DNA from: Kangiella marina
GTDB lineage: Bacteria; Pseudomonadota; Gammaproteobacteria; Enterobacterales; Kangiellaceae
DNA: 64,000 nt
Direction of reading: 5' to 3'
Assembly (NCBI RefSeq): GCF_039541235.1
Contig: NZ_BAABFV010000002.1
Coordinates: 496,001 to 560,000, forward strand
The stretch's first letter is position 1. Every line of letters starts with the position of its first letter. The notes beneath the pieces were generated by a model that saw only the letters and a program-made list of their open reading frames with translations, searched no databases and had not been told where the DNA came from. The position numbers were made by a program, and so were the translations under genes. Shown one piece after another: positions 10,571 through 35,509 of this stretch.

Positions 10571-11263
10571 ATGGGCAAGCGAATCGCAGTTGTAGAAGAT
10601 GAGCCACTATTGCAACAAAACTACAGCATGGCACTAAAAAAATCTGGTTATGAAGTTGTGGTTTATGAAACCAAGCAAGAGGCGGAAAAAGCCTTTGCTA
10701 ATCGCTTACCCGATCTGGTGTTACTTGATATTGGCCTAGGAAATGAGCAGGAAGCGGGGTTTGAAATTTGTCGTAGCTTGCGCCAGAAGTCGACCCAGCT
10801 GCCGATTATTTTCTTAACAGCTTTAGACAGTGATCTGGATATTATTTCCGGTCTCAGGCTTGGCGCTGATGATTATTTAACCAAGGATATCAGCTTGCCG
10901 CATTTATTAGCGCGGATTTCTGCATTATTCAGACGTTTAGATTCCTTACAAACGTCGCCTAACGCAAACGCTATCCATGAAGTGGGTTCGCTAGAAATTG
11001 ACAATGAGCGTTTGAGCGTCAAGTGGAATGGTCAATTAGTCGATTTAACCGTCAGTGAATTCTGGATTGTGAATGCTTTAGTGTCCCGTCCAGGCCATGT
11101 TAAAAACCGGGAGCAACTGATGCAGGCGGTAAAAGCTGTGGTTGATGACAGCACCATTACGTCACATATTAAGCGGATACGTCAAAAATTCCAGCGTATT
11201 GATCAAACGTTTGATTCTATTGAAACGGTTTATGGTATGGGTTATCGCTGGAATCAGGCTTAG
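10571..11263 (+). CDS. pdsR: OmpR-type response regulator of the proteobacterial dedicated sortase system (PdsR-like)
   Basis: The 230-aa protein has a receiver domain (residues 3-118; VVEDE, LLDIGLG, FLTA, LTKDIS) and an OmpR/PhoB winged-helix DNA-binding domain (about 135-228). The wording of its motifs, LLDIGLGNEQEAGFEICRSLR, ISGLRLGADDYLTKDISLPH and DDSTITSHIKRIRQKFQ with IETVYGMGYRW, matches what I recall of the family named proteobacterial dedicated sortase system response regulator (TIGR03787). AGGAC gives a good ribosome-binding site. The cognate kinase starts 9 nt after the stop. No sortase gene is adjacent. Confidence 0.82.
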   Translation: MGKRIAVVEDEPLLQQNYSMALKKSGYEVVVYETKQEAEKAFANRLPDLVLLDIGLGNEQEAGFEICRSLRQKSTQLPIIFLTALDSDLDIISGLRLGADDYLTKDISLPHLLARISALFRRLDSLQTSPNANAIHEVGSLEIDNERLSVKWNGQLVDLTVSEFWIVNALVSRPGHVKNREQLMQAVKAVVDDSTITSHIKRIRQKFQRIDQTFDSIETVYGMGYRWNQA

Positions 11264-11272
11264 TAAACCGCT

Positions 11273-13276
11273 ATGAAGTCGTTATCACTCAAATGGCGAA
11301 TTCTTCTGATCAGCTGCGTGTTTTTGCTCATTCCACTCGCAAGTTGGTTGATTGATAGTAAATTTGAAAGTGATTTAGAGCGTGATAACTTCCAGCAAAC
11401 GGTTCAGCAAGCAAACAATCTTCGCAGCTTTTTTGAGCAGCTCATTCAGCACGATAATAACTTTAGACAGAAATTGGATACCAACGGTGTTAAACCCACG
11501 CTGCAAGTTGCACTGCGTGAAACAGGGATCTTGGTTGATGGGTTTTCTGATGAATGGTATCCCTACCATGGTTTTACCAAGCGCATTCAAAACTTCGGAC
11601 AAACGGCTGAGCTCAGCTTAGTTGAAGACCAAAAACATATGTTTTTACTGGTGACGGTTGAGGATGATGATATTGCTTATCGACAAAATCTCGATATGAC
11701 AGGCATGTCCGATAAGGTTGAGTTACAACTGGATGGATATCGGTTACAGTTTGCACCACTGGCTCCGGGCAGAGTGGCCGCATTGCGACAAACCAGTAAT
11801 GGTTTTCGAGAGGTCGCTTCAGTTTATGCCGTATGGCAGGAGTTAACAGAAGGATACCAGCTCGAAATACGTATACCGCGTAATCAAATTGGTACTCTAT
11901 TCAGCGCCGAGATTCATGATGTTGATAAGAATGTAAATTCAGCTCCTGTGCTGCAAGGGCTATACTCATTCACCAACTTTGAGCAAGTCGCTCTAAACAG
12001 CATGCTCAGTGTCGGAGCCTTGTCGAGACTTAGCGCAGATGATTACCGTGTGATGATCACCAATCTAAGTGGTGATATTGTTTATGGATATGGTCAGCCT
12101 CACCAAGACATCAAGGGCCACTGGCGGAATCGACTCTGGTTGAGTGATTTGAGCCCGATTCAAACCCGCGGCAGTAAAGTCAGCCTCTCTAGTGATGAGC
12201 TAGATCAAACCTTGATAGGTAAAGCTCAAGAACAGTTGGTTGACGAAGGACTGTTAACCGCCTACTCAAGAATTTTGGAACCTTTGTATGACGGAGAGCA
12301 AGTAGTTGGTGCTTTGATTATTGAGTCGTCAGCGATTAATCAAAAACTTTACTTGCGTGACTTTTGGCTCCGTATGTTGCTATTGATGCTACTGTTTTGG
12401 GTCTTAATGGTGTGGTGGCTATACCGTTCCAGTAAAGATTATAGCCGACGCATTGTTGAGTTACGTGATATTACGGAAGAGGCTGTCTCTGAGCAGGGAC
12501 AAATTCGTCATGTCATACAGCGAGAAGAGTATTATGATGATGAAGTTGCAGATTTAACCAATACTTTTTCACACCTAACGACTCGATTAAAACAGCACCA
12601 TGACTATCAAGAAAAGCTGGTAGCGAGACTGAATCATGAGTTACGCACGCCCATCGCGATTATTCGAAGTTCTCTGGATAATTTAAGCGTTGAAAACTTA
12701 TCCGAGCTCGATGCGCAAATGCTGCATACGGCTCAGTCAGGTGCGAGTAGGATGAGTCAGACGTTAAGTCGTTTGAGCGAAGCAACCCGCTTGGAGCAAG
12801 CCATAAAAAGCGCTGATAAACATAACTTTGATGTTGTCGTGGTGCTTAGAGATTTGACGCGCGCTTATGCTACTAATTGGCCTGAACACCAGTTTGAGTT
12901 TGAGACGAATGTTGATGAGGTAGAATTGAAAGGGTCTCGCGATTTATTTGTCCAGATGGTTGATAAGTTGATTACCAATGCTGTTGACTTTGATGATCAA
13001 TCGCAACCGATTCGACTTAAACTTGCCTTGGAGGAGGGGCGGTTGCTGTTTGAGGTCAGTAATCGAGGTACTCCGATTGAGCATAAGGCACTTAAATCAG
13101 TTTTTAGTTTGATGCATTCAAGTCGAAAAAATTCAGGGGGGCATCTAGGCTTGGGTTTATATTTAGCAAAGCTTATTGCTAACTTCCATAATGGGCACAT
13201 CGTTGCAAAGAATCATAATGATCAGGGTGGAGTCAGTATTGTTATTAGCTGGAAAAATAAATATTTTACCGATTGA
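11273..13276 (+). CDS. pdsS: Sensor histidine kinase, dedicated-sortase type (PdsS-like)
   Basis: The 667-residue membrane kinase has TM1 at about residues 8-27 and a long periplasmic sensor region. That region resembles a CBM9-like/DOMON beta-sandwich: DGFSDEW, then HMFLLVTVEDDDI, then KVELQLDGY. TM2 is at about 363-383. A short HAMP-like linker leads to HisKA with phospho-acceptor H455 (LNHELRTPIAIIRSSLDNL) and a HATPase domain (N-box DKLITNAVDF, G-box GGHLGLGLYLAKLIANFHNGH). The architecture fits TIGR03785-type kinases. It is paired with the preceding regulator. The signal is unknown; the sugar-binding-like fold suggests an envelope or glycan cue (inference). Confidence 0.82.
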   Translation: MKSLSLKWRILLISCVFLLIPLASWLIDSKFESDLERDNFQQTVQQANNLRSFFEQLIQHDNNFRQKLDTNGVKPTLQVALRETGILVDGFSDEWYPYHGFTKRIQNFGQTAELSLVEDQKHMFLLVTVEDDDIAYRQNLDMTGMSDKVELQLDGYRLQFAPLAPGRVAALRQTSNGFREVASVYAVWQELTEGYQLEIRIPRNQIGTLFSAEIHDVDKNVNSAPVLQGLYSFTNFEQVALNSMLSVGALSRLSADDYRVMITNLSGDIVYGYGQPHQDIKGHWRNRLWLSDLSPIQTRGSKVSLSSDELDQTLIGKAQEQLVDEGLLTAYSRILEPLYDGEQVVGALIIESSAINQKLYLRDFWLRMLLLMLLFWVLMVWWLYRSSKDYSRRIVELRDITEEAVSEQGQIRHVIQREEYYDDEVADLTNTFSHLTTRLKQHHDYQEKLVARLNHELRTPIAIIRSSLDNLSVENLSELDAQMLHTAQSGASRMSQTLSRLSEATRLEQAIKSADKHNFDVVVVLRDLTRAYATNWPEHQFEFETNVDEVELKGSRDLFVQMVDKLITNAVDFDDQSQPIRLKLALEEGRLLFEVSNRGTPIEHKALKSVFSLMHSSRKNSGGHLGLGLYLAKLIANFHNGHIVAKNHNDQGGVSIVISWKNKYFTD

Positions 13277-30298: not shown

Positions 30299-30898
30299 TT
30301 AGATCTTGGCCTTTGCATCCTTGGGTTTACGCAAACGATGTTTTGGCCAGGATAAGCCTAAAATCAACCCCTGAATAAACCCAATAATGTGAGCCTCCTC
30401 AATCACATTACCGCCTAGCCATTCGTTGTATTCTGTTTCTGAGCCCAATAGCTGCGGCAAAAAGATTTTCAAACCAACTATCACCAACAATAGACCGCTA
30501 AGTTTAACGCCTAGCCTTAGTTCGCCTACCGCTGCGGCTGCAATAAGTCCATAAAGTGCCCCAGACATACCAACATAATGCTCTAAAGAAGGCACCCAGA
30601 GATGCAGTCCCACAATATTGCCAATAAAAAGTAATGCGAACCAGATGAGCCAGTCCGAGTTTTTTATAAGGTTAATGAACAGAAGCATAGTGAACCAGAG
30701 GCCAGCTAAGTTGAGCAGGGTGTGCCATAAGCCCAAATGGACAAAATTGGGGGTCAGAAAGCGCCAAAACTCGCCATCATTGACAGCTAGCCGGTCATAA
30801 GCCAGCCATAAGTTTAGCTTGGGGGATGCAAATATGAGAATAATGCAAATATGACTTAATATCAAAGGGATAGCATATTTCTGTAAAGTTCGTGACAT
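30299..30898 (-). CDS. rrtA: Rhombosortase (rhomboid-family GlyGly-CTERM protease)
   Basis: This 199-aa rhomboid-like membrane protease has about six TM segments. It shows HxxxN (GLWHTLLNLAG), the nucleophile motif GMSGALYG, and a late TM His in EEAHIIGFIQGL. The size and the FWRFLTPNFVHL start match rhombosortases, which cleave GlyGly-CTERM proteins at the cell surface (family TIGR03902). No GlyGly-CTERM target is seen in this window. It diverges from the first peptide cassette, whose promoter begins within 25 bp of its start codon. Confidence 0.85.
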   Translation of the reverse strand: MSRTLQKYAIPLILSHICIILIFASPKLNLWLAYDRLAVNDGEFWRFLTPNFVHLGLWHTLLNLAGLWFTMLLFINLIKNSDWLIWFALLFIGNIVGLHLWVPSLEHYVGMSGALYGLIAAAAVGELRLGVKLSGLLLVIVGLKIFLPQLLGSETEYNEWLGGNVIEEAHIIGFIQGLILGLSWPKHRLRKPKDAKAKI

Positions 30899-30916
30899 AA
30901 GTAGTATTTATCAAAT

Positions 30917-31122
30917 GTAAAATTTACTTCACGCTTTTATTTAATTATATTGATTAAAATTTATACACAAAAACCCATAACACAGGTTCTTTACAATAAT
31001 AATATCGTTTAAAAGCAATAAGTTATGGTAATTACTCGGCGGATGCGTATTTCGTCATCCATTATTTATTTTGTTTTATATCCTATTTTTTTATCAATAA
31101 CTACTGTTAGAGGAATTTAATT
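30917..31122 (+). promoter_or_regulatory. Cassette 1 promoter, dyad and structured leader
   Basis: The dyad GTAAAATTTAC (30917-30927) overlaps a -35 (TTTACT, 30923-30928), followed after 17 bp by -10 TATATT (30946-30951). The leader of about 165 nt contains CCATAAC/GTTATGG (30975-30981 with 31022-31028) and a compact hairpin at 31041-31060 (GGATGCG...CGTCATCC). The same elements recur before A2 and A3 at the same distance from the start codon. Confidence 0.6.
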
Positions 31123-31281
31123 ATGTTTGAATCTATCGCAATGATCTGCTATTTATCTATGGTACAGCCTCAAGAAATTCAACAACCTTTGTTTGATCCG
31201 AAGGAAGTTGCTCTTGGAGTATATACTGGAAGTAATGGTGGGGAGCCTGAAGAGGATCCTGAAGAAAAGGAAAGAAATTAA
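31123..31281 (+). CDS. Small peptide A1 (52 aa), cassette 1
   Basis: This short gene has a good ribosome-binding site (AGAGG, 9 nt upstream). The product begins MFESIAMICYLSMVQPQEIQ, continues through QPLF, and ends with an acidic part containing VYTG, GGEPEEDP and a charged tail. Three paralogues (A1-A3) share an identical first 24 residues and the VYTGxxGGEPEEDP region, and differ in between. There is no clear signal peptide or full TM helix. The next gene (B1) starts 2 nt after the stop, so translation is coupled. I do not recognise the family. Peptide signal, modified-peptide precursor or small toxin are possibilities, none proven. Confidence 0.72.
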   Translation: MFESIAMICYLSMVQPQEIQQPLFDPKEVALGVYTGSNGGEPEEDPEEKERN

Positions 31282-31283
31282 TA

Positions 31284-31877
31284 TTGCAGAACTTAATTAT
31301 TGAATTGAACTTAGATAGTTTATTTACCGACTGGTTTACTGTTGGTCTGGTTCTTTGTCTAGTTCTTCACTTGTTATTCACCAAGCGTAAAAGCTTGGTG
31401 AATTTCTGTATGTTTTTGGTGGTGGTACAATTTATTAACTGGCAACTTAGCCCTTGGCTTTACGGGCACGAGCACGCAAAGTACCTATGGTATTTAACAT
31501 GGATGATAACTGACATTGCAATTCTATTATACGTTGCCTACCGAGCGGTGATCAAAAAGTCGGTTACTAAAGAAGAACTTGCGGTCAGTGTGTTTACGAC
31601 GATAGCTATATTCTTTTATATAGGCCGTTATATTGAACGCCACTTTACAGAATTTAGTTTTATAAAAGGTGCGCAGGGCTATGCACTTCCGTCTGTGAAT
31701 ATATGTATATTACTAGTTTTACTAACGCCAGTGTTGAAAGAGTTAGTACTGATATCAGGGAAACATTTGAATGGCATTACTATTTTTGGCCTACGGTTTA
31801 GTGTTAGCAGCATTCGCAGCAATGCTGTTCTGGCTGATCCTAAGGGCATATCGAAGCAAAAACGCAGAATCCTTTGA
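31284..31877 (+). CDS. Multi-spanning membrane protein B1, cassette 1
   Basis: This 197-aa protein of unrecognised family has five predicted TM segments, at about residues 18-33, 38-56, 66-88, 97-117 and 134-155. Conserved features among B1-B3 are HExA-YxWYxTWMxTD, a GRxIERHFTEF loop, and a C-terminal NGITIFGLRFSVSS segment followed by a basic KRR tail. An odd TM number with a basic C-terminus would put the C-terminus inside and the N-terminus outside (inference). The start is TTG 31284, 2 nt after A1, suggesting translational coupling. The last 107 nt overlap ORF C1 in another frame. Confidence 0.75.
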   Translation: MQNLIIELNLDSLFTDWFTVGLVLCLVLHLLFTKRKSLVNFCMFLVVVQFINWQLSPWLYGHEHAKYLWYLTWMITDIAILLYVAYRAVIKKSVTKEELAVSVFTTIAIFFYIGRYIERHFTEFSFIKGAQGYALPSVNICILLVLLTPVLKELVLISGKHLNGITIFGLRFSVSSIRSNAVLADPKGISKQKRRIL

Positions 31878-32163
31878 AGCCGGGTTTTCGGAGCAGGGAC
31901 TCTTCGGTGAAGAAGAGAACATCGTTGATCTGTCGGCCTATCGCCGAGCGGATATTGTAGCCCTACGCCTACTGCAAGAGTACTCTCAGATAGAGACGAG
32001 CAACTTATCGGAGAAAGATAAGTTGAGAGAAATTTTAGTGTGGAACCAAAAGCTAGAAGATTTTGAGCGAAAGAATCGTAAGATCATTCAATCTCGTGGC
32101 TTTTTAAGGCCGGTCCAAGCGAGCTCAAAGAGCTCAACGGTCACTCCCCTAACTCGGATATAG
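31771..32163 (+). CDS. Small membrane-anchored protein C1, overlapping B1
   Basis: The 130-aa ORF begins with one strong TM segment (about residues 2-25, ALLFLAYGLVLAAFAAMLFW). A polar, probably cytoplasmic, helical region of about 100 residues follows (NIVDLSAYRRADIVALRLLQEY; LREILVWNQKLEDFERKN). It overlaps the last 107 nt of B1 in a different frame and continues about 285 nt beyond, up to a strong terminator. Family unknown. It looks like a genuine protein, but cassette 3 lacks it, so it may be accessory. Confidence 0.6.
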   Translation: MALLFLAYGLVLAAFAAMLFWLILRAYRSKNAESFEAGFSEQGLFGEEENIVDLSAYRRADIVALRLLQEYSQIETSNLSEKDKLREILVWNQKLEDFERKNRKIIQSRGFLRPVQASSKSSTVTPLTRI

Positions 32164-32184
32164 TGATCGTACGAACGACAACAG

Positions 32185-32209
32185 AAGCGCCTTTTTAGGC
32201 GCTTTTTTT
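32185..32209 (+). terminator. Rho-independent terminator after C1
   Basis: GCGCC-TTTTTA-GGCGC followed by seven T, with AA upstream able to extend the stem. It lies 21 nt after the C1 stop and separates cassette 1 from cassette 2. Confidence 0.9.
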
Positions 32210-32254
32210 ATAACTAAAAATAGATTAATAAAAAGAATAGGTTTAAGTCAATCT

Positions 32255-32272
32255 TGCATTGCTTTTAATGCA
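32255..32272. promoter_or_regulatory. TGCATT/AATGCA dyad between cassettes 1 and 2
   Basis: TGCATT-GCTTTT-AATGCA is an inverted repeat upstream of the cassette 2 promoter. The same dyad recurs at 33837-33854. It resembles the AATGCATT motif in front of the nearby XRE regulator gene, so it may be that regulator's site (inference). Confidence 0.35.
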
Positions 32273-32345
32273 TAAAAGACATGACAATTCAATCATTTAA
32301 CTTGTCCTATCACCCGAATATTTTAATAAGTAAAATTTATCAAAT

Positions 32346-32550
32346 GTAAAATTTACTTCACGTTTTTATTTAATTATATTGATTAATATTTATACAGTTA
32401 AACCCATAACGCTTGCTCTTTACACTAATAATATCGTTTCAAAACAATTAGTTATGGTACTCATTTGGCGGGTGCGCACTTCGTAACCCATTAATTATTT
32501 TGTTTAATTCAATTTTTTACGTGTAATCACAACTGTTGGAGACAATTATT
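32346..32550 (+). promoter_or_regulatory. Cassette 2 promoter, dyad and structured leader
   Basis: The dyad GTAAAATTTAC (32346-32356) overlaps -35 TTTACT; -10 TATATT is at 32375-32380 after 17 bp. CCATAAC (32404-32410) pairs with GTTATGG (32451-32457). A hairpin at 32470-32489 (GGGTGCG...CGTAACCC) shows a compensatory base-pair change relative to cassette 1. Confidence 0.6.
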
Positions 32551-32709
32551 ATGTTTGAATCTATCGCAATGATCTGCTATTTATCTATGGTACAGCCTCA
32601 AGAAATTCAACAACCTCTGTTCGAGCCTAAAGAAACGGCTTTAGAGGTGTATACAGGTAACGGTGGTGGGGAGCCAGAAGAGGATCCTACCGAGGAAGAG
32701 CGTGATTAG
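32551..32709 (+). CDS. Small peptide A2 (52 aa), cassette 2
   Basis: This is a paralogue of A1 with the same length, the same first 24 residues, then EPKETALEVYTGNGGGEPEE and an acidic tail ending ERD. The ribosome-binding site is GGAGA before the ATG. Unlike A1 and A3 it is followed by a 157-bp gap before its B gene, so coupling is lost here. The gap contains a TTAGTTAAACTAA palindrome but no other gene. Function unknown. Confidence 0.72.
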   Translation: MFESIAMICYLSMVQPQEIQQPLFEPKETALEVYTGNGGGEPEEDPTEEERD

Positions 32710-32866
32710 TCTCTATAAGCAAGTAAAGTAAGTGACGAGATTTTTTAAAACCATTTTGTCATTTAGTTTTAGTTAAACTAAGCTTCTAAGGCTCATCACA
32801 CTTACAAGTAATTAATCTGGCTAAGGCTAGTATTTAGGTGAAGGCGTAAGAAGAGGGTAGAACTCG

Positions 32867-33460
32867 TTGTTTAACTTTGTATTAGAGCTAAATTTATGGC
32901 AACCACTTAAGGATATTTTCACATTATCCTTAGTGGCTTGCCTGTTCTTACATCTGCTTTTTACTAAAGAAAGCCGTCTAGTGAGCTTTTGCATGTTGCT
33001 GGTTGTCGTGCAGTTTTTAAACTGGGCAATAAGCCCTGCTCTCCGTTCGCACGAGATTGCTATATATATTTGGTATATCACCTGGATGATTACCGACATA
33101 CTTATTCTTGCATACGTTGCTACAAGAGCCGTTTTATCCGGAAAAGTACTCAAAGAAGAGTTTGCGATTTCTGTTCTAACGGTAGTGGCGATAAGTTTTA
33201 GTTTAGGACGTTTCATTGAAAGACATTTTACTGAGTTTGATTTTATCGGAAGCATACAAGCCTACGCCCTACAATCAGTCAATATCTGTATTGTTGTTGT
33301 GCTGGCTTTACCGGTAATCAAACAATTGGTGTTCATAGCTGGGAAAGAGTTAAATGGCATTACTATTTTTGGCCTACGGTTTAGTGTTAGCAGCATTCGC
33401 AGCAATGCTGTTCTGGCTGATCCTAAGGGCATATCGAAGCAAAAACGCAGAATCCTTTGA
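32867..33460 (+). CDS. Multi-spanning membrane protein B2, cassette 2
   Basis: This 197-aa paralogue of B1 aligns without gaps and has the same five-TM layout, HEIAIYIWYITWMITD, GRFIERHFTEF and the identical C-terminal segment. The last 35 or so residues lie in the near-identical repeat block; upstream of it B2 has diverged clearly from B1. The start is TTG 32867 with AGAGGG 9 nt upstream. Family unrecognised. Confidence 0.75.
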   Translation: MFNFVLELNLWQPLKDIFTLSLVACLFLHLLFTKESRLVSFCMLLVVVQFLNWAISPALRSHEIAIYIWYITWMITDILILAYVATRAVLSGKVLKEEFAISVLTVVAISFSLGRFIERHFTEFDFIGSIQAYALQSVNICIVVVLALPVIKQLVFIAGKELNGITIFGLRFSVSSIRSNAVLADPKGISKQKRRIL

Positions 33461-33745
33461 AGCCGGGTTTTCGGAGCAGGGACTCTTCGGTGAAGAAGAG
33501 AACATCGTTGATCTGTCGGCCTATCGCCGAGCGGATATTGTAGCCCTACGCCTACTGCAAGAGTACTCTCAGATAGGACGAGCAACTTATCGGAGAAAGA
33601 TAAGTTGAGAGAAATTTTAGTGTGGAACCAAAAGCTAGAAGATTTTGAGCGAAAGAATCGTAAGATCATTCAATCTCGTGGCTTTTTAAGGCCGGTCCAA
33701 GCGAGCTCAAAGAGCTCAACGGTCACTCCCCTAACTCGGATATAG
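33354..33745 (+). pseudogene. Frameshifted copy of ORF C (C2)
   Basis: Identical to C1 through LLQEYSQI (residue 74). A single base is then missing (CAGATAGAGACG in C1 against CAGATAGGACG here, near 33576), and the frame ends early at 33608. The remaining sequence still matches C1 in the original frame up to 33745. Either the gene is inactivated or this is a sequencing error in a repeat. Confidence 0.75.
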
Positions 33746-33766
33746 TCATCGTACGAACGACAACAG

Positions 33767-33791
33767 AAGCGCCTTTTTAGGCGCTTTTTTT
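33767..33791 (+). terminator. Rho-independent terminator after C2
   Basis: Same GCGCC-TTTTTA-GGCGC stem and seven-T run as after C1. It separates cassettes 2 and 3. Confidence 0.9.
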
Positions 33792-33836
33792 ATAACTAAA
33801 AATAGATTAATAAAAAGAATAGGTTTAAGTCAATCT

Positions 33837-33854
33837 TGCATTGCTTTTAATGCA
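33837..33854. promoter_or_regulatory. TGCATT/AATGCA dyad between cassettes 2 and 3
   Basis: Second copy of the inverted repeat described at 32255-32272, inside the duplicated block. Confidence 0.35.
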
Positions 33855-33927
33855 TAAAAGACATGACAATTCAATCATTTAACTTGTCCTATCACCCGAA
33901 TATTTTAATAAGTAAAATTTATCAAAT

Positions 33928-34132
33928 GTAAAATTTACTTCACGTTTTTATTTAATTATATTGATTAATATTTATACAGTTAAACCCATAACGCTTGCTC
34001 TTTACACTAATAATATCGTTTCAAAACAATTAGTTATGGTACTCATTTGGCGGGTGCGCACTTCGTAACCCATTAATTATTTTGTTTAATTCAATTTTTT
34101 ACGTGTAATCACAACTGTTGGAGACAATTATT
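33928..34132 (+). promoter_or_regulatory. Cassette 3 promoter, dyad and structured leader
   Basis: Essentially identical to leader 2: dyad 33928-33938, -35 33934-33939, -10 33957-33962, pairing of 33986-33992 with 34033-34039, and a hairpin at 34052-34071. Confidence 0.6.
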
Positions 34133-34291
34133 ATGTTTGAATCTATCGCAATGATCTGCTATTTATCTATGGTACAGCCTCAAGAAATTCAACAACCTCT
34201 GTTCGTGCCACCCCATAAAGAGGTCGAGGTATACACTGGAACTCACGGTGGTGAGCCAGAGGAGGATCCGGATAAAGAAGAGAGAGATTAA
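34133..34291 (+). CDS. Small peptide A3 (52 aa), cassette 3
   Basis: This is the third A paralogue. It has the identical 24-residue start, then a different middle (VPPHKEVEVYTGTHGGEPEE) and an acidic tail ending ERD. The total length of 52 is unchanged although the middle differs, as if length matters. The stop is 2 nt before the B3 reading frame. Function unknown. Confidence 0.72.
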   Translation: MFESIAMICYLSMVQPQEIQQPLFVPPHKEVEVYTGTHGGEPEEDPDKEERD

Positions 34292-34293
34292 TT

Positions 34294-34890
34294 ATTAGCA
34301 ACTTTGTACTCGAGTTAAACCTTGAGGATCTACTAAACAACTGGTTTACATTAGGTTTAGCTAGCTGTCTAGGTTTCCACCTTTTGCTCACTAAGCAAAA
34401 AAGCTTAGTGAGCTTTTGCGCTTTTCTGGTCGTTTTACAATTTATTAATTTGCAACTCAGTCCCTGGGTATATGCTCACGAGCATGCAAAATACCTATGG
34501 TATATCACATGGATGGTTACCGATCTCTCTATTCTTTTCTTTGTAGGTTATCGGGCTGTGTTCAAAGGTACTGTTACGAAGGAAGAGTTAGCTATTAGCT
34601 GCTTCACTCTTATAGCTATTATCTTTCATATCAGCAGATTTATAGAAAGGCACTATTCAGAGCTTACCGTCATAAAAGACACTCAAGCCTACGCATACAC
34701 AGCTGTGAATGTTTGTATTCTTCTCATTTTATTTGCTCCAATAGCCAAGCAATTGGTTGTAGTCGCTGGCAAGCAGATCAACGGCATAACTCTATTTGGT
34801 TTGCGCTTCAGCGTCAGTAGCGTGAACAACAACTCATCAGTATCGAACTCAAAAAACTTTTCCAGAAGGAAAAGAAGAAGAATCCCCTAA
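34294..34890 (+). CDS. Multi-spanning membrane protein B3, cassette 3 (possible ATT start)
   Basis: This B paralogue of about 198 aa shows the conserved SNFVLELNLE N-terminus, HEHAKYLWYITWMVTD and RFIERHYSEL. The tail is NGITLFGLRFSVSS plus RRKRRRIP. The codon aligned with the TTG starts of B1 and B2, at the same 2-nt distance from the A stop, is ATT (34294). No ATG, GTG or TTG lies nearby; the first is TTG at 34384, which would remove most of the first TM segment. Either an ATT start with coupling is used or B3 is degraded. There is no C ORF here, yet the B C-terminus is kept, so that part of B is under protein-level constraint. Confidence 0.65.
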   Translation: MSNFVLELNLEDLLNNWFTLGLASCLGFHLLLTKQKSLVSFCAFLVVLQFINLQLSPWVYAHEHAKYLWYITWMVTDLSILFFVGYRAVFKGTVTKEELAISCFTLIAIIFHISRFIERHYSELTVIKDTQAYAYTAVNVCILLILFAPIAKQLVVVAGKQINGITLFGLRFSVSSVNNNSSVSNSKNFSRRKRRRIP

Positions 34891-35084: not shown

Positions 35085-35474
35085 CTATTTCAAATTTACA
35101 ATACGCATTCCAAGCTCTTCTTTGGAGCTGTTGGCCCTGTAATTAGACAATATCATCTCAGCTTTTTCTTCAGGAGTCAGTTCAATGCCTCTAGCATTTG
35201 CTAACGACTCTACCAGAGTGATTATACGCTTTAGTGTATCAACTTCAGAAGAGTAGTCTATTTGGTTCGTGGTCTCATTGATGGGTACCAGTGTGAGTCT
35301 GAAACCAAGAGCTCGAGCTAGTGTATCAATTTTGTGAACGCCAGGATCTGTGGTCTTTCGTTCAAGGATCCGGTAAATAGTGGATTGGCTTATATTTGAC
35401 TTGCGCTGCATTGAATAATCAGTTTCACCAAAATTATTCATCAGTTGCTTTAGTTGATCAATTATTTCACTCAT
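35085..35474 (-). CDS. XRE-type helix-turn-helix regulator
   Basis: The 129-aa protein has a Cro/CI-like HTH at about residues 15-65 (DYSMQRKSNISQSTIYRILERKTTDPGVHKIDTLARALG). A helical C-terminal part follows (EVDTLKRIITLVESLA; TPEEKAEMILSNY) and may mediate dimerisation. ATG 35474 is preferred to the TTG five codons earlier. Tandem AATGCATT motifs lie just upstream, and similar dyads occur between the peptide cassettes. It therefore may control itself and the cassettes (inference). It is transcribed toward the cassettes. Confidence 0.75.
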   Translation of the reverse strand: MSEIIDQLKQLMNNFGETDYSMQRKSNISQSTIYRILERKTTDPGVHKIDTLARALGFRLTLVPINETTNQIDYSSEVDTLKRIITLVESLANARGIELTPEEKAEMILSNYRANSSKEELGMRIVNLK

Positions 35475-35509
35475 ATTGTATTCCAACAATGCAATTTTGA
35501 CTTGATTTC

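Follow-up and report, generated by a model that had tools for sequence, protein, structure and literature searches.

A 64,000-nt stretch of the 2.51-Mb genome of Kangiella marina (RefSeq assembly GCF_039541235.1, contig NZ_BAABFV010000002.1, positions 496,001 to 560,000; hereafter the window) carries three tandem cassettes, each with a promoter/operator element, a leader, a gene for a small peptide (A) and a gene for a predicted five-helix membrane protein (B), followed in some copies by a gene for a third protein (C). The cassettes are genuine, and their genes are translated and under purifying selection. A and B are conserved and stay paired, the A peptides of relatives have differing N-termini around one core, and the module is carried by both chromosomes and phages. 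Tentatively, we read A-B(-C) as an exported-peptide/membrane-partner module used as signal and receptor, by which a cell or a prophage would read its own or its kin's peptide.

Anatomy of the three cassettes

The cassettes lie in succession between a pyrF, comEA-like and rhombosortase gene block and a helix-turn-helix (HTH) gene. Direct repeats lie at 30897, 32326 and 33908, in agreement with the three repeated units that an initial annotation had drawn from the letters of the window. Units 1 and 2 run element-leader-A-B-C and unit 3 runs element-leader-A-B, as follows (dN and dS, nonsynonymous and synonymous substitution rates).

30913..30932, + strand: promoter/operator element of cassette 1 (AAATGTAAAATTTACTTCAC), one of three genome-wide matches at up to three mismatches
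31123..31281, + strand: A1, 52-aa peptide; uncharged short hydrophobic N-terminus, linker, TGSNGGEPEEDP core, acidic tail; dN below dS
31284..31877, + strand: B1, 197 aa, predicted five-helix membrane protein, TTG start
31771..32163, + strand: C1, 130 aa, intact; one transmembrane helix at the N-terminus, remainder probably cytosolic; reading frame overlaps the end of B1
about 32186..32209, + strand: terminator-like hairpin and T-run after C1, read from the sequence
32342..32361, + strand: promoter/operator element of cassette 2, from the genome-wide element search
32551..32709, + strand: A2, 52-aa peptide, TGNGGGEP core type
32867..33460, + strand: B2, 197 aa, type-2 membrane domain
33354..33745, + strand: C2, with a 1-nt frameshift, otherwise near-identical to C1
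33924..33943, + strand: promoter/operator element of cassette 3, from the genome-wide element search
34133..34291, + strand: A3, 52-aa peptide
34294..34890, + strand: B3, about 198 aa, start codon uncertain, no C after it

The promoter/leader spans 223 nt, with copies 2 and 3 each 81% identical to copy 1, and the three A genes are 81-86% identical. The element AAATGTAAAATTTACTTCAC, which includes the palindrome GTAAAATTTAC, has exactly three matches in the genome at up to three mismatches, one upstream of each A, and the reversed pattern, searched as a control, had none; similar sequences precede 22 A genes from 13 genomes. The dyad-bearing promoter and the 52-codon peptide gene proposed for each unit were both recovered. 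The proposed length of about 197 aa for the partner applies to B1 and B2. B3 is slightly longer and has no ATG, GTG or TTG at the homologous start, where ATT stands in place of the TTG of B1 and B2; in the region 34291-34390, translation would thus begin at a rare ATT codon or, with loss of the first helix, at an internal codon. The optional third protein is intact in cassette 1 alone, and the terminator is visible in the sequence after C1 although the automatic terminator scan did not list it.

A conserved core behind differing N-termini

Eighteen aligned A proteins share invariant MFE.IAMICYLS, TG, G, P and P positions; the N-terminus and the core are the conserved parts and the middle is a linker. 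The A peptides collected from all loci have in common a run rich in Gly and, after it, E/R-P or P-P (e.g., GGGGxGVEPP). The core reads TGSNGGEPEEDP in the window, NGGGGGGVEPPKLN in Pseudoalteromonas phage C5a, and NGGGGDGIVPP and NGGGGDGIIPP at locus L154. Some A proteins contain 2-13 core repeats: L132 has an LGNGAGIEPPK-like unit three times, L044 repeats GGGGVEPIAV many times, and 5-13 GG[VI][EK]P units were counted in the six A genes of the rsmI type described below, one of which is truncated by a contig end. Two A genes at the pyrF locus (L051:8555-9337 and L041:8881-9348) also encode repeat proteins, with 8 and 4 matched TGxxGGEP units, respectively.

The N-termini in front of this core were sorted by eye into several classes. 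Sec-like signals occur at L036, L042, L044, L047, L048, L035 and L141, and the rsmI-type A of six genomes is Sec-like, the start of one being cut off. Nine relatives have a double-glycine leader (L138, L139, L149, L151, L152, L154 and L173-L175). The Kangiella pyrF type, L053, L086 and L087 have a short uncharged hydrophobic start, which in window-type A consists only of an 11-residue hydrophobic stretch without charge bias. The A starts of L132 and L136 show weak FlgM similarity (E 0.035 and 0.026), and those of L131, L134 and L137 look like them.

Outside the pyrF type, the core motif was found directly upstream of B in 28 of 35 B loci, a count in which records of one element were counted once and L150 and L153, which start at B, were set aside. 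One of the 28 was discounted as chance, leaving 27; there the motif forms the end of a frame that we take to be TsaD-like. The same motif occurs in 101 of the 10,820 small open reading frames (ORFs) of these loci, A genes included. Because the motif was defined after most A peptides had been seen, these counts are descriptive and do not constitute a test.

Mosaic copies, matched pairs and selection

Compared over 100-column alignment windows, units 2 and 3 share 99-100% of positions in their 5' parts, and units 1 and 2 do so in their 3' parts. Between these, DNA identity of the copies falls to 47-72% over the A core and B membrane domain, so the copies are mosaics of near-identical outer parts and a diverged inner part. 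The initial annotation had noted diversification of the peptide middle and its partner; A is not hypervariable, however, and its middle is a linker.

Paralogs and orthologs were compared in five genomes with two cassettes each (cassettes 1 and 2 for the window). The B membrane domain is 0.59 identical (aa) between paralogs of the same genome, versus 0.69 and 0.84 between orthologs, and the type-2 A peptides all read TGNGGGEP, the type-1 peptides TG[GS][NST]GGEP. For the B tail plus C (nt), the window paralogs are 0.99 identical and those of the remaining four genomes 0.69-0.77, with 0.73 and 0.74 between genomes. Over 22 cassettes, A and B distances correlate at 0.673, a value equalled in 1 of 5000 trials in which A paralogs were swapped within genomes. 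A cores and B membrane domains thus stay together as matched pairs.

For A, B and C, dN was below dS in every comparison with an estimable dS (dN/dS 0.13-0.61, 0.10-0.31 and 0.06-0.17, respectively; dS was saturated in over half of the B comparisons). This marks the genes as translated and constrained.

Codons 1-17 of A (31123-31173, 32551-32601 and 34133-34183) hardly vary among the five genomes, synonymous sites included. Counted over cassettes of types 1 and 2, differing degenerate shared codon pairs number 8 of 129 and 8 of 140 there, against fractions of 0.31-0.39 for the remainder of A and about 0.55 for B. The 5' end of A is therefore likely under RNA- or DNA-level constraint. RNAalifold yielded no consensus fold for 22 leaders (-1.0 kcal/mol) and Rfam matches stayed below gathering scores, and a structured RNA leader was rejected.

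B and C proteins

AlphaFold2 models of the window B and of the C5a B, built from 7 and 6 sequences, each contain five long helices (predicted local distance difference test, pLDDT, 74.1 and 72.1; predicted template modelling score, pTM, 0.66 each). Loop charges suggest that the C-terminus of B1 is inside and that two conserved segments, KY.WY..W and R[YF].ER, are at the outer face. In C, a single N-terminal helix precedes about 100 further residues. A single W is the sole invariant residue among 13 Kangiellaceae-type B proteins; eight phage-type B proteins share ten invariant residues, some of them polar, and an R and a Y..N pair seem to recur across the family.

Like the initial annotation, the profile searches assigned none of the three proteins to a family: none of the A, B and C proteins that were scanned, those of the window included, had a Pfam or NCBIfam match above the cut-off, and PADLOC gave no match for nine B and C proteins at E up to 1. 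Foldseek and VIA-align searches with the B fold returned nothing above the helical-bundle background. In BFVD, the top eight rows for the window B had probabilities of 0.95-1.00 at E 0.036-0.2 and were uncharacterised or unnamed proteins, several of them named phage; for the C5a B model the best E was 0.53, and the top rows of the window B ranked lower or were not shown. PHROG matches to holins or spanins were at chance level, and this identity was rejected. The family phrog_31674, which has no assigned function, matches part of B in 4 of 394 genomes of the order; it is not listed for the window B at E up to 1, unlike the B of those four genomes, and had no match in the K. marina genome at E 0.001.

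The phage-type B proteins plus intermediates aligned with the Kangiellaceae profile in hhalign at E 1.2e-7 (probability 94, 127 columns). The C5a and ACA1 B proteins are tied to the Kangiella B through these intermediates only.

Distribution in genomes and phages

The co-occurrence check proposed with the initial annotation supports a paired system. In the family, the B profile matches 21 of 40 genomes, namely 19 of 20 Kangiella genomes, the sole negative one being 55% complete, and 2 of 20 others. Kangiella-type A occurs in 13 of the 40, all B-positive, and in these 13 Kangiella genomes A and B are present 1:1 in one to three copies. C was matched in 21 of 40 genomes (E 0.01); the match in G031, at E 0.008 within a 953-aa frame, is likely due to chance. 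The cassette occupies two chromosomal places, beside pyrF in 13 Kangiella genomes and, in a diverged form, beside the RNase P RNA in six (6/6). An rsmI-like gene, tested in one case of five, adjoins A in five of these six, and the contig of L050 ends before it.

At the level of the order, a match at E 0.05 or better was obtained in 56 of 394 genomes; outside the family, nine fall below 1e-6 (E 1e-13 to 3e-7) and are clear relatives, and the weak match L142, examined with them, was judged unrelated. The phage-type B profile matches 8 of the 394 genomes, one with eight copies, and not that of K. marina. The Kangiellaceae profile matched 2 of 369 genomes of the class, K. marina itself and G128, which was judged chance; with up to nine candidates scored per genome, the negatives carry little weight. 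A plasmid search with the window B gave no match.

The genome with eight B paralogs, G631 (L173-L177), has two B genes in tandem without A, and the three chromosomal A peptides read there all carry a lysine-rich leader of double-glycine type and, close to a tail ending in Cys, a YWP stretch. Another genome, the Kangiella genome G016, contains two further B-C pairs without recognisable A (L049:7410-8238 and 10770-11602), one with a convergent C, near genes that are presumably tsaD-like and plsY-like.

By tblastn, the module was found in the records of Pseudoalteromonas phages C5a, ACA1, ACA2 and proACA1-A. In the two that were read, gp5-gp7 are A-B-C (C5a gp5-gp6-gp7, ACA1 gp5-gp7, all annotated as hypothetical), in the same order as in Kangiella, and A is a 39-aa double-glycine peptide with a GGGGGGVEPP core. 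The ACA1 gp5 record notes that HHpred weakly detects TIGR01847; a word search of the main text of the ACA1 paper (PMC10612066) gave no match to gp5, gp6 or gp7. The phage collection was searched with six B proteins other than the window B; two of them hit the same five Pseudoalteromonas records and four hit none. IMG/VR contigs contributed nine loci. The cassette points toward a presumed repressor gene, adjacent or with one to three genes between, in 11 loci of phages or mobile elements (C5a, ACA1, L053, L086, L088, L136, L138, L141, L151, L152 and L154), and 7 of 8 such genes tested have a Pfam HTH match. An exception is L035, a second copy in Kangiella, which adjoins a phage tail gene. In the mobile element at L086:1326-2589, two extra genes lie between C and the HTH gene.

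A possible peptide signal and its membrane receptor

In the mechanism that we tentatively propose, A would be a precursor whose useful part is the short Gly-rich core with E/R-P or P-P at its end. The precursor would cross the inner membrane by means of a host-suited N-terminus, either Sec-like, double-glycine or uncharged hydrophobic, or perhaps a FlgM-like flagellar export signal. B, with its five helices in the inner membrane, may bind the core at the periplasmic face, where the conserved W-Y..W and R..ER motifs of Kangiella B are predicted to be located, and the optional one-helix C may relay the state of B to the cytosol. Export, topology, binding and signalling are inferred; the mechanism draws on the different leaders around one core, the fixed A-B pairing and the existence of B genes without an upstream A motif, which would fit either a receptor or an immunity gene. 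A signal/receptor role ranks slightly above self-immunity and phage exclusion in view of core conservation and the near-universal presence of the module in Kangiella; the similarity of the core across genera also speaks against an arms race. The initial annotation had named signal/receptor, peptide/export and toxin/immunity systems as candidates. This was the right class, given that A relatives with export-type N-termini are paired with B, but peptide/export is unlikely, since relatives use ready-made Sec-like and double-glycine tags yet keep B.

Several observations weigh against a signal/receptor role. No kinase or DNA-binding output is encoded and many B genes lack C (none was seen beside B in the ORF lists of cassette 3, L130, L131, L133, L135, L139 and L173-L177), so signal transfer would need host proteins. 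The leader classes depend on sorting by eye, and the exporter test was blunt: C39, the exporter domain, is present in G631, the one clear double-glycine genome tested, and lacking in 17 of the 19 Kangiella genomes and in G674, a Sec-like case, but it also occurs in G028 and G033 and in G006 and G011, where no double-glycine A was seen. The short peptide before B at L088/L092 falls outside the core motif, and no motif was found upstream of B at L135, L140, L176, both L177 loci and one L049 locus. The presumed repressor of L088 has no Pfam match. Aligned directly with the Kangiella profile, the C5a group gives a weak match (E 0.008, probability 5), as it does with the G033 group (E 0.006), and treating B as one family relies on the intermediates, the common gene order and the A core. 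The correlation between A and rhombosortase distances, 0.735, exceeds that between A and B, for which the partial value is 0.50, and the matching could arise from an old duplication of linked genes alone. Strong homogenisation is a feature of the window only, as the paralogs of the other four genomes are about as close as sequences from different genomes. Kangiella A may also stay membrane-tethered and act in cis only.

The most serious competitor, although we consider it unlikely, is a bacteriocin/immunity pair in which the cell would secrete A as a small antibacterial peptide and be shielded from it by B together with C. A double-glycine leader followed by a membrane-protein gene is the layout of class II microcins, one genome has eight B paralogs and cores that differ among the three of its chromosomal A genes that were read, and B genes lacking A would count as orphans conferring immunity. 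However, the core is short, hydrophilic, Gly-rich and alike across genera, phages and chromosomes, unlike that of diversifying killers; no exporter gene was seen in the cassettes, no C39 match was found in the K. marina genome, and the Kangiella N-termini would keep A in the envelope. A somewhat less probable explanation is superinfection exclusion or prophage protection, with periplasmic A and membrane-bound B and C blocking other phages and the chromosomal copies being domesticated. The orientation toward repressor-like genes, mostly with an HTH match, the IMG/VR loci and the Kangiella copy beside a phage tail gene are consistent with it, but the presence of B in nearly every genome of one genus at two recurring chromosomal places would be unusual for defence, and PADLOC found no match.

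Regulation in cis, in which A stays in the membrane and tunes B and C as a transporter or channel, appears improbable. It would suit the bare hydrophobic stretch of window-type A and the 1:1 amplification of A with B, but not the cleavable-looking Sec-like and double-glycine leaders and repeated cores of relatives. An enzyme role for B, processing or modifying A, is conceivable in view of the ten invariant residues of the phage type, the recurring R and Y..N and the fixed pairing with a peptide whose core is repeated at some loci. With one W alone invariant in the Kangiellaceae type and no match to an enzyme family or fold, we regard it as very improbable.

Comparison with described systems also separates the module from known types. 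The agr and ComC/ComD systems likewise place a short exported peptide beside a membrane partner, but they include a histidine kinase or a processing protease or exporter; none occurs in the three cassettes, and B and C match no such family. Class II microcins with their immunity proteins resemble some relatives in having a double-glycine peptide and a small membrane protein, and differ from the cassette in its tiny Gly-rich core common across genera, its other leaders and its near-universality in Kangiella; window A has no double-glycine leader by eye. Arbitrium and other RRNPP systems likewise have a peptide gene within the lysogeny region of temperate phages, but their receptor is a cytosolic protein with tetratricopeptide repeats or HTH, and B in both models is a hydrophobic five-helix protein. 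Substrates of the GlyGly-CTERM/rhombosortase system have a C-terminal Gly-Gly motif, transmembrane helix and basic tail. Window A instead ends in an acidic tail without a helix and merely has a rhombosortase gene as neighbour.

Literature searches found no description of the A-B-C system. An exported peptide with a membrane partner is already known as a general kind; this family and its leader switching were not found described. It is a doubtful extension of the signal/receptor reading that the conserved Gly-rich xEPP peptide, having shifted between export routes in evolution, represents an undescribed communication system of Gram-negative bacteria and their temperate phages, read by a new family of kinase-less five-helix receptors. 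Prophages would use it next to their repressor to sense lysogens, and Kangiella would hold it in its core genome and have multiplied it into matched peptide-receptor types. If the peptide acts on B, phages C5a and ACA1 and culturable Kangiella offer a testable pair for peptide sensing or self-protection in Gram-negatives. The different leaders around one core mark the functional part of the peptide and predict a synthetic peptide, and the analysis defines A, B and C families left as hypothetical in the databases searched.

Neighbouring genes

The HTH gene at 35085-35489 was considered as a dedicated regulator, but its linkage to the cassette does not hold and the idea was rejected: 19 of 20 Kangiella genomes have the gene, yet in the six rsmI-type genomes it lies on another contig (five) or far away (one). 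The rhombosortase gene (TIGR03902) occupies 30299-30898, divergent from cassette 1. As a processing enzyme for A it was likewise rejected, being a positional neighbour only, since the rsmI-type cassettes adjoin the RNase P RNA instead. A rhombosortase-like gene lies beside the cassette in eight other listed pyrF-type loci.

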